64,000 bases of DNA from Prosthecobacter sp. SYSU 5D2. GTDB taxonomy: Bacteria; Verrucomicrobiota; Verrucomicrobiia; Verrucomicrobiales; Verrucomicrobiaceae. Shown here piece after piece: positions 32,033 through 64,000 of the stretch (within the stretch, counting starts at the first letter, position 1; each line of letters opens with the position of its first letter). The notes below the pieces were generated by a model. The model had not been told where the DNA came from. It saw only the letters and a program-made list of their open reading frames with translations, and did no database searches. Location of the stretch: assembly GCF_039655865.1 (NCBI RefSeq), contig NZ_JBBYXL010000002.1:372001-436000 (forward strand), written 5' to 3'. The position numbers and the translations under genes are program-made.

Positions 32033-32264
32033 TACTCATCACTCTCCGAGTGATGCGTTATGGGAGGTGGAAGCACATCTGGTTTTCGAAGAACCGAGAA
32101 GATGTCCTTTGTTGTTTGAATGTTTGTTAGGCGGCGGGGTCGTGGAACGCATCACTCGGAGAGTGATGAGTACTGTACTCGCGAAGATGTCCTTTGTTGT
32201 TTGAAAGTTTGTTAGGCTGCGAAGTCGTGGGCCGCATCACTCGGAGAGTGGTGAGTACTGTACT
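32032..32264. repeat. REP-like palindrome cluster with two 82-bp direct repeats
   Basis: A 26-bp sequence, CGCATCACTCGGAGAGTGAT followed by GAGTAC, occurs in perfect form at 32148-32173, with one change at 32233-32258, and inverted at 32032-32057. Each copy holds a hairpin of CATCACTC and GAGTGATG around 3 nt. The two same-direction copies end two near-identical 82-bp units (32098-32179 and 32183-32264, period 85). The cluster fills the gap between convergent genes, touching both stop codons, so it may also end transcription from both sides. Confidence 0.85.
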
Positions 32265-62706: not shown

Positions 62707-62711
62707 AACTC

Positions 62712-62787
62712 GATTAACAAGATTTAATCCAAGGAATCAAACTTCCCCTACTGAAATCTTGTTAATCCTGAAATCGTGTTAATCCTG
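62712..62787. repeat. long inverted repeat plus AATCCTG direct repeats
   Basis: GATTAACAAGATTT (62712-62725) pairs perfectly with AAATCTTGTTAATC (62754-62767), 14 bp around a 28-nt loop. Two direct units TGTTAATCCTG follow (near 62760-62770 and 62777-62787), then an A-rich run. The family is the same as ACAGGATT at 39356-39388. It lies 6 nt after the isomerase-like gene and may end its transcript. Confidence 0.75.
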
Positions 62788-62816
62788 TAAAAAAAAGAAT
62801 CTCCACCAGCCCCCTT

Positions 62817-63392
62817 ATGCCCGAAGCCAAAGTACTCCTCATCGTCGGTGACGCCACCGAGACCGTTGACACCCTGTATCCCTTTTTCCGTCTGATCGAA
62901 GGCGGTTATACTCCGGTCGTCGCCGCGCCGGAAAAACGGAAGTACCAGATGGTGCTGCATGAAATCAAGCCCGGCTGGACCATCACCAAGGAGTGGGAAG
63001 GCTACAGCATTGATGCCGACATCGCCTTCAAGGACATCAACCCGGAAGAATACGTGGGCATCTTTTTCAGCGGTGGCCGCGCCCCGGAATACATCCGTGA
63101 AGATGCCGACCTGCTGCGCATCACGAAGTGGTTTTGGGAGCAGAAAAAACCCTGCGCCAGCGTCTGCCACGGCGTGGAGATCCCGGCCCGCGCCGATATC
63201 GTCAAAGGCCTGCGCATGGCCACCGTGGCCAAGTGCAAGTTCGACCTGGAAATCTGTGGCGGCATCTACGTGAACGAGCCCTGCGTTATTGACCAGCACA
63301 TGTACTCCGGCCGCACCTATCATGACAGCGGCCATTTCATCGGCCCCTGGATCAAAGCTCTGGATGCCGAGCGCGCCAAGATGGGAGTCTAA
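62817..63392 (+). CDS. DJ-1/PfpI family protein
   Basis: A 191-residue cytoplasmic protein of the class I glutamine amidotransferase-like fold. Motifs are KVLLIVGDATETVDTLYPFF, the acidic elbow residue region, GIFFSGGRAPEYIREDADLL and the nucleophile cysteine in CASVCHGVEIPA. Members act as glyoxalases, chaperones or small-molecule hydrolases; which one applies here is not visible. The ATG follows a C-rich leader. The short repeat GAATGAC begins directly behind its stop codon. Confidence 0.9.
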   Translation: MPEAKVLLIVGDATETVDTLYPFFRLIEGGYTPVVAAPEKRKYQMVLHEIKPGWTITKEWEGYSIDADIAFKDINPEEYVGIFFSGGRAPEYIREDADLLRITKWFWEQKKPCASVCHGVEIPARADIVKGLRMATVAKCKFDLEICGGIYVNEPCVIDQHMYSGRTYHDSGHFIGPWIKALDAERAKMGV

Positions 63393-63394
63393 GA

Positions 63395-63521
63395 AATGAC
63401 GAATGACGAATGACGAATGATGAATGACGAATTCAATCCGAATGATTAAGCCCACCCCTTCTCATCTCGACGTCCGTTCCATGCCTGCCATTCGTCATTC
63501 TGCATTCGTCATTCGTCATTT
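63395..63521. repeat. GAATGAC-type repeat in inverted orientation
   Basis: Left arm 63395-63432 consists of tandem AATGACG units; the right arm 63489-63521 is its near reverse complement (ATTCGTC units). The 56-nt centre is unrelated. The right arm lies inside the coding start of the next gene. Long stem formation is possible. Confidence 0.8.
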
Positions 63522-64000
63522 GTTTTTTGCTTTCGCCCTGCTGCATCTGGCCTCTTCCCCTTCATCCGCCCACCCTCTCCAGGCGGAGCCGATCAACCAC
63601 GCGTACGTCTTTCCCTTCGACCAGTATAATCTGCCGGAGGATCCCGATGAGCACGTGGTGGAAGGTGGATATCTTTTGTTAGGCGAGCTGAACTGCACGG
63701 CCTGCCATGCGCCGCCCCAGTCCTGGGCGGAGAGGCTGGCGGCCAAACCGGGGCCGAACCTGGCCGGTGTGGGCTCACGGCTGGATGCGGACACGCTCTG
63801 GCTCATGATCCGCAGTCCTCAGCATCGCAAAAAGGGCACCCAGATGCCCGGCCTGTTTGCCGGGGAGGAAGGCGATGCAGAGAAGGTAGAAGCGTTGACG
63901 GAATATCTGGGCAGCTTGAAACAGGAGGTGAAGAAAATGCCCGCCGGAGACATCGCGCGCGGCAAGGAGCTTTATCATAAAGTCGGCTGTGTGGCCTGTC
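63481..64000 (+). CDS. exported c-type cytochrome, 5' part only
   Basis: The frame from the ATG at 63481 stays open to the right edge; an in-frame ATG at 63442 is another possible start. The N-terminus MPAIRHSAFVIRHLFFAFAL continues LLHLASS and acts as a signal peptide; its first half is encoded by the repeat. The mature protein has a first heme motif CTACH, with the distal region KKGTQMPGLF, and near the edge a second start, KELYHKVGCVAC, where the next codon would be His. It is a multiheme cytochrome probably serving periplasmic electron transfer; the rest lies outside the window. Confidence 0.85.
   Translation, partial: MPAIRHSAFVIRHLFFAFALLHLASSPSSAHPLQAEPINHAYVFPFDQYNLPEDPDEHVVEGGYLLLGELNCTACHAPPQSWAERLAAKPGPNLAGVGSRLDADTLWLMIRSPQHRKKGTQMPGLFAGEEGDAEKVEALTEYLGSLKQEVKKMPAGDIARGKELYHKVGCVAC

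Follow-up and report, generated by a model that had tools for sequence, protein, structure and literature searches.

To our knowledge, little has been recorded about how new bacterial signal peptides arise. We analysed a 64,000-nt stretch of the Prosthecobacter sp. SYSU 5D2 genome (hereafter the window; positions refer to it unless a locus number beginning with L is given). Between a DJ-1/PfpI family gene and a cytochrome gene, this stretch carries AATGACG heptamers arranged as an inverted repeat, and one of the arms probably encodes the front of the cytochrome export signal. Tandem heptamers dispersed over a genome are familiar from cyanobacteria, in which they are called short tandemly repeated repetitive (STRR) sequences. 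That a signal peptide can derive from a repeat is already known, and there is a clear precedent: the RU-2/YPAL element of Yersinia supplies the signal peptide of YPO1552 (Delihas 2007, PMC2759123; Delihas 2008, PMC2229807). As in the Prosthecobacter case, related proteins there carry unrelated signal peptides (PMC2759123, PMC2229807). RU-2 is described as a defined element of ~168 bp, whereas the unit here is a tandem heptamer, and, unlike what is related of RU-2, the repeat considered here recurs in no fewer than three families of secretory genes and in several species, with frequent changes of presence within a genus (PMC2759123, PMC2229807).

Other heptamers resemble the AATGACG repeat in their genomic placement. 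GGGNATC heptamers of Xanthomonas and Nostoc are reported to be dispersed and over-represented in noncoding DNA (Rehm 2015, PMC4692102). According to the same account they lie antisense before starts and sense after stops, a polarity that we also found here, in 46 of 54 arrays (PMC4692102). They differ in being G-rich and in forming quadruplexes in vitro, whereas the AATGACG unit contains no run of G (PMC4692102). We did notice G-rich flanks at some AATGACG arrays. TAACTGA heptamers are described from Beggiatoaceae, cyanobacteria, and Bacteroidetes (MacGregor 2015, PMC4679880). In that description, too, arrays lie mostly within several nucleotides of start codons, with one strand carrying stops in all frames and the other encoding a repeating heptapeptide (PMC4679880). 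There, however, the stop-carrying strand is the sense strand at starts, whereas here it is the stop-free one, and one inverted pair is reported there against several here (PMC4679880). The term "signal peptide" occurs in neither Rehm 2015 (PMC4692102) nor the main text of MacGregor 2015 (PMC4679880). Finally, the Rickettsia palindromic elements (RPEs) offer a parallel for in-frame repeats inside conserved protein genes, as we observed in valS (see below); they are presented as defined palindromic elements, whereas the arrays here vary in length and sequence (PMC2229807). We found no description of a repeat-coded leader of the present kind in the openly licensed literature searched. What appears to be new is the recurrence over genes and species, a frame-free property tied to polarity, the frequent turnover, and the intercistronic inverted repeat.

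The DJ-1/PfpI gene (PF01965) occupies positions 62817-63392 of the forward strand, as do all the features that follow, and ends with a TAA stop at 63390-63392. An AATGACG array begins 2 nt past this stop and forms the 5' arm of the inverted repeat (63395-63432, period 7, 5.4 copies). It is followed by a spacer of 56 nt (63433-63488), which would form the loop side of a predicted RNA hairpin, and then by the 3' arm, an inverse CGTCATT array of 4.6 copies (63489-63520). The 8 matches to AATGACGAATGACG at up to two mismatches in the window all lay at the DJ-1/cytochrome locus (0.41 expected; none of 100 shuffles reached 8). The downstream open reading frame (ORF) of 731 aa encodes a product matching the cytochrome c families PF00034 and PF13442. 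Its in-frame starts are ATG 63424 (63424-63426, the furthest upstream, inside the 5' arm), ATG 63442, ATG 63481 (63481-63483, in the spacer and directly ahead of the 3' arm, the most likely start), and TTG 63520 (63520-63522). Read from ATG 63481, the frame passes through the inverse array as MPAIRHSAFVIRHLFFAFALLHLASSPSSA and continues into HPLQAEP. The residues AIRHSAFVIRHL, at 63487-63522, hold the CGTCATT array and would constitute the n-region of a signal peptide; LFFAFALLHLASSPSSA, at 63520-63570, would be its hydrophobic core and cleavage region, and the mature protein would begin with HPLQAEP at 63571. Thus, the first-pass annotation was right that the AATGACG block behind the DJ-1/PfpI gene has an inverse in the first cytochrome codons, and that this inverse runs straight into a hydrophobic core.

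We propose the following scheme, to which we give a probability of roughly 0.73 on comparative sequence grounds. One arm of the repeat would stay noncoding behind the DJ-1 stop. Translation would start at ATG 63481 in the spacer, so that the basic n-region of a Sec-type signal peptide would be read from the CGTCATT arm; the hydrophobic core would come next, with cleavage before HPLQAEP. The repeat would be tolerated as coding sequence because its CGTCATT strand is open in all frames and always gives IRHSSFV, which would supply an arginine and a histidine beside hydrophobic residues. A repeat located at a gene start may therefore be drawn into the coding region by extension, irrespective of frame, and be retained as a leader.

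Orthologous loci of the genus were compared. Of 35 genomes, our own included, 32 gave near full-length cytochrome matches and 30 loci were studied; left out were G027 and G021 (matched, not among the loci), G022 and G009 (partial), and G020 (no match). At 15 of the 30 loci (class A), the stretch running from the DJ-1 stop to the start of the mature protein contained AATGACG- and CGTCATT-type units, with leaders resembling MPSFVIRASSFxRHSSFxxRHSALLLAxFLL. Nine loci (class B) had a shorter, different stretch, mostly with partly complementary GCAAAAACG-like words; one had a TTGGTCA-like leader and five had compact leaders without repeats. An alignment of the inverted repeat beat all 60 shuffles at 10 of the 15 class A loci and at none of the 6 other loci outside class B. 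The repeat-free orthologs carried different leaders, such as MTRSTKLLAILAPMAFLGGPARS and, in class B, MNTSKLWTLFAASAFFCGHVQA, and the residues proposed to stem from the repeat were not seen without it.

An in-frame ATG upstream of the repeat was present in all 15 repeat-bearing orthologs, and in 13 of them the nearest one stood 84-114 nt before the HP codon (90 here). In 8 of the 15, no ATG, GTG, or TTG occurred between the repeat and the mature protein, so that export of the protein would there imply translation of the repeat. The leaders also looked like signal peptides. The best 10-residue Kyte-Doolittle mean ranged from 2.08 to 3.05 across the 15 repeat leaders (2.40 here), positions -3 and -1 of the putative cleavage site were each occupied by A or S in 13 of the 15, and the n-region in our genome contained R and H; these are simple measures, by which a Sec signal peptide is indicated.

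A different start would change the picture for our genome. TTG 63520, lying in frame where the repeat ends, is the sole start codon of the ATG, GTG, or TTG type from there to the mature HP, and if translation began at it the repeat would be an untranslated leader, as at many other genes of this genome. Some later start exists in 7 of the 15 repeat-bearing orthologs, and 15 other arrays of the genome have an ATG within 2-24 nt after them (by hand). We nevertheless hold this start to be improbable: it would give MFFAFALLHLASSPSSA, which has no basic n-region, all 15 orthologs have an ATG ahead of the repeat, 8 have no start after it, and export of the DsbD_N-like and DUF1592 products presented below would require the repeat to be translated. 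Hence, the proposal of the first-pass annotation that the repeat serves as the start of an export signal is supported by comparative sequence evidence and not proved for this genome; a start downstream of the repeat is argued against by the 8 orthologs that have no codon for it, whereas the other 7, among them our genome with TTG 63520, have a candidate.

The AATGACG unit is not confined to this locus. The 5.87-Mb genome contained 70 exact copies of the 14-mer AATGACGAATGACG and no copy of its reversed control. Across the genus, the 14-mer was present in 40 of 48 genomes (0 to 184 copies each), the control being absent from all 48. These tandem 7-nt units at many loci thus form a dispersed heptameric simple repeat. 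In a sample of the phylum, a three-unit array was found in 8 of 288 genomes and the reversed pattern in 5 of 288. The 57 copies in this sample included 24 from our genome, 16 from one genome of another family, and 8 from one other of the genus. Since the reversed control was not empty at that scale, a three-unit array is unremarkable there outside a few genomes. Arrays of four or more units in public genomes amounted to at least 117 stretches (L105-L221), which by record title come from many phyla, with Prosthecobacter among the organisms named.

We then considered where the arrays lie relative to genes. Sixty-two arrays (at least two units, one of them perfect, found by a script that may miss more degenerate arrays) were catalogued in 44 stretches fetched around AATGACG clusters, and gene edges came from a home-made codon-usage caller trained on these stretches and the window. 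Arrays had 2 to 12 units and were single or paired, with spacers unlike one another by eye. Only 8 of the 62 lay deep inside genes, the remaining 54 reaching no more than 120 nt into a called gene, so that the arrays were mostly noncoding in position. In the 46 of these 54 mentioned above, AATGACG pointed away from the closest gene edge (p 1.4e-7 in a two-sided binomial test, paired arms not being independent), and this was so for 28 of 30 arrays within 15 nt of an edge (counted by hand). The AATGACG strand was thus mostly sense just after stops and antisense just before starts, and at several places both arms shared one intergenic region, as at the DJ-1/cytochrome locus. Computed translation showed that (ATTCGTC)n yields IRHSSFV in all three frames with no stop, and that the complement strand, (GACGAAT)n, carries TGA in all three. 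When the nearest edge was a start, the stop-free strand was sense in 27 of 30 arrays, so that an array located there can be read in any frame.

Other genes of the genome whose start carries the repeat, which the earlier annotation had advised looking for, included three in which it would be coding: a DsbD_N-like gene, a DUF1592 gene, and a pseudopilin gene. The DsbD_N-like protein begins MTRLRLFVIRYSSFVIFLSLFAFTPSYS. Among its orthologs (30 of 30 returned loci examined), CGTCATT units occurred in the leader in 7, for instance in MTNGPSRRLLLLVVLLSSFVIRHSSLAQ, and in some they stood at the cleavage end, as in SSFVIRHSSLAQ; L344 had two CGTCATT in the leader and one counted copy in the upstream gene. 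The planctomycete-type cytochrome/DUF1592 protein of our genome begins MKISIPLLFISSFVILHSSFAAAS, with the repeat as the core. Its ortholog in a second species uses the repeat too (MKPLVLAVKISSFCILHSSFAAE), making 2 of the 12 loci examined out of 30 returned, and a third ortholog has MSLRFKPRLRHIVTLSSCHLVIVASCHLAIAAQ, apparently from a further repeat family. In the pseudopilin, a repeat-coded segment lies ahead of the N_methyl motif. At L062 (3994-4689), two successive ORFs, at least the second of them pilin-like, have AATGACG inverted repeats around their starts, and the leader before GFTLVEI is repeat-coded.

In-frame arrays were also found away from gene starts. The valyl-tRNA synthetase gene valS (L079, 3967-4035) contains an in-frame AATGACG inverted repeat, KNDESRMTNDEKSDSSFVIPHSS. 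We read this site in 29 of 30 loci (L283 was left out): the relatives had KGSDRSALSDG-like, shorter, or unrelated 72-97 aa segments, and the frame was kept in all 29. In a double ketosynthase gene (L061, 3959-4021), an in-frame inverted repeat serves as a linker between two ketosynthase-like parts, and this gene may have arisen by fusion across what was once intergenic DNA. Three DUF1549/DUF1553 paralogs had an in-frame array at the same place within PSCyt2 (L064, 3994-4022; L066, 3987-4015; L080, 8545-8573).

Several observations weigh against the repeat having become a leader. A start codon past the repeat exists in 7 of the 15 repeat-bearing orthologs, our genome included, and P stands at -1 in 2 of the 15 leaders. 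By hand, we found only the three other genes (DsbD_N-like, DUF1592, and pseudopilin) in which the repeat must code N-terminally. An ATG shortly after the 15 arrays cited above indicates that the repeat is probably a noncoding 5' leader there, so that coding use at gene starts is the minority. The leader classes were set by eye, as was the recognition of repeat families besides AATGACG. As for class B, its inverted repeat beat all 60 shuffles at only 1 of 9 loci. At one mismatch, 5 of the 9 class B genomes had its word dispersed in 6-12 copies and 4 lacked it; reversed controls were seen in 8 of 47 genomes, with one or two copies each. The class B word was also present in some genomes with an AATGACG leader. 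Some of the non-AATGACG leaders may come from other dispersed repeats.

The distribution of the leaders over the genus pointed to a high turnover. The AATGACG label, carried by 15 of the 30 rows, required 10 changes on a quick maximum-likelihood tree built from DJ-1 and the mature cytochrome. Shuffled labels required 10.3 on average, and 267 of 500 shuffles were as low as observed; at least 6 changes were forced by well-supported branches. None of the three rows closest to our genome had an AATGACG leader, and the 14-mer was missing altogether from two of their genomes. Two sisters (L239 and L242) were 94% identical in the mature part and 95% in the h/c-region, but identity was 42% between the DJ-1 stop and approximately the end of the repeat. 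L253/L256, like the near-neighbour pair L257/L259, were 86-90% alike in the flanking genes, 48-55% in the h/c-region, and 22-31% between the DJ-1 stop and roughly where the repeat ends. These patterns suggest that leaders were swapped repeatedly in the genus, with AATGACG and perhaps other dispersed repeats as the material.

The same patterns could reflect leader exchange by recombination between species, which would count against repeats as the source. Homologous recombination through the conserved DJ-1 and cytochrome flanks would make the repeats mere passengers, and it would be in line both with a number of label changes no lower than in shuffles and with flanks 86-90% alike enclosing leaders 22-31% alike. 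Yet the repeat leaders of different species have themselves diverged (42% against 94-95% in the adjoining parts of L239 and L242), and the repeat occupies different places of the signal peptide at different loci. Recombination would not, moreover, explain the first origin of leaders from repeats. We therefore regard it as rather unlikely to be the main cause of the turnover, and continue to favour a repeat translated as the front of the export signal.

What the data say about one orthologous gene in one genus is that near species have unrelated leaders and that, in half of the species examined, the source is still recognisable as a repeat dispersed over our genome. For this reason, the birth of signal peptides from noncoding repeats is directly testable here. 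Short repeats look like recurrent raw material for protein leaders. We would go further only tentatively, at somewhat less than even odds: several dispersed short-period repeat families with a fixed polarity at gene borders may constitute a standing reservoir from which signal peptides and other leaders are formed and replaced again and again. Through this polarity, a strand that lacks stops in every frame and codes for basic and hydrophobic residues would be sense at gene starts, and new export signals could arise whatever the frame. On a practical level, start codons predicted beside such repeats need care, because the repeat is open in all frames.

How the repeat spreads is a separate matter. 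The first-pass annotation had called it mobile-looking, a description partly borne out by its dispersion and by its frequent changes of presence at the locus on the tree; no transposase association or target-site signature was found. A classical element, that is, a miniature inverted-repeat transposable element (MITE) or a repetitive extragenic palindrome (REP) moved by a transposase such as a REP-associated tyrosine transposase (RAYT) and inserted at the gene border, would agree with the inverted arms, the dispersed copies, and the in-frame valS segment, which was not seen in the 28 relatives read. About 13 arrays, by hand, continue into AATGAT- or AAGGAT- words resembling a small hairpin, which would fit as well. 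Against this, none of the 10 Y1 transposase genes had AATGACG in the flanks fetched, spacers and array lengths varied, and neither a constant unit nor a target duplication was seen. The hairpin word occurred at only 3 genome places at up to three mismatches, and the homologous valS sites held other segments, with no clean empty site accompanied by a duplication. We thus consider such an element improbable.

Two specific candidates were rejected in this respect. For a RAYT/REP origin, the fetched flanks of the 10 Y1_Tnp loci of the genome (up to ~1.5 kb, shorter at contig ends) contained AATGACG in no case. As the core of an element, the hairpin-like extension AATGATCCCGC-GAA-GCGGGAACGAATGA failed, its 25-base core matching 3 genome places at up to three mismatches. 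By eye, the ~13 arrays concerned (L075, L077, L085, L101, and others) run into this extension or into degenerate forms of it. No constant-length unit with terminal inverted repeats, as in MITEs and RPEs, was found among the catalogued arrays.

Because the two arms are complementary, the RNA was also considered. Folding of our own region from the DJ-1 stop gave a predicted minimum free energy of -53.2 (z -5.3). Relative to dinucleotide shuffles, the mean z was -3.66 in class A (11 of 15 at -2 or below) and -2.31 in class B (5 of 9), as compared with -0.14 in the class without repeats (0 of 5) and -1.48 at the TTGGTCA-like locus. When arms were swapped between species, they paired better on average with their own partners (36 of 20,000 permutations as low in class A, 20 of 20,000 in class B), a preference that relatedness could explain, as could selection on the stem or one arm correcting the other. 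Own arms were the best partner in 1 of 15 class A and 5 of 9 class B loci. Taken together, folding and arm pairing make an intercistronic messenger RNA hairpin with the start codon in its loop a possible second role of the repeat, as judged from these predictions.

A stronger version of this idea, in which the inverted repeat is primarily an RNA element and the peptide a by-product, appears to us doubtful. Such a hairpin would couple or damp cytochrome translation, or stabilise the upstream message, and the folding contrast between loci with and without repeats and the preference of arms for their own partners would follow from it. However, complementarity is expected from any inverted repeat copy, and relatedness confounds the swap test. 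The own arm was seldom the best partner in class A, and four loci of each class (of 15 in class A, of 9 in class B) had a z weaker than -2. Among the class B loci, L233, L234, L248, and L256 had z above -1, which also counts against the leader account itself. A general bracketing of the intergenic regions of the window by inverted repeats failed as well, 3 of 27 regions being significant against 0 of 27 intragenic controls; as the gene calls prolong the cytochrome gene into the spacer, our own region covered only 49 nt plus edges in that test. The translated CGTCATT arm remains our preferred account of the locus, with the hairpin as a possible accompaniment.

Two other repeats were noticed in the window. 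The region ahead of the DJ-1 gene (62707-62816) contains an inverted repeat of another family (GATTAACAAGATTT / AAATCTTGTTAATC), which starts close behind the upstream stop. At 32033-32264, an 85-bp tandem duplication (32098-32264) accompanies a 29-bp perfect inverted repeat between convergent genes.
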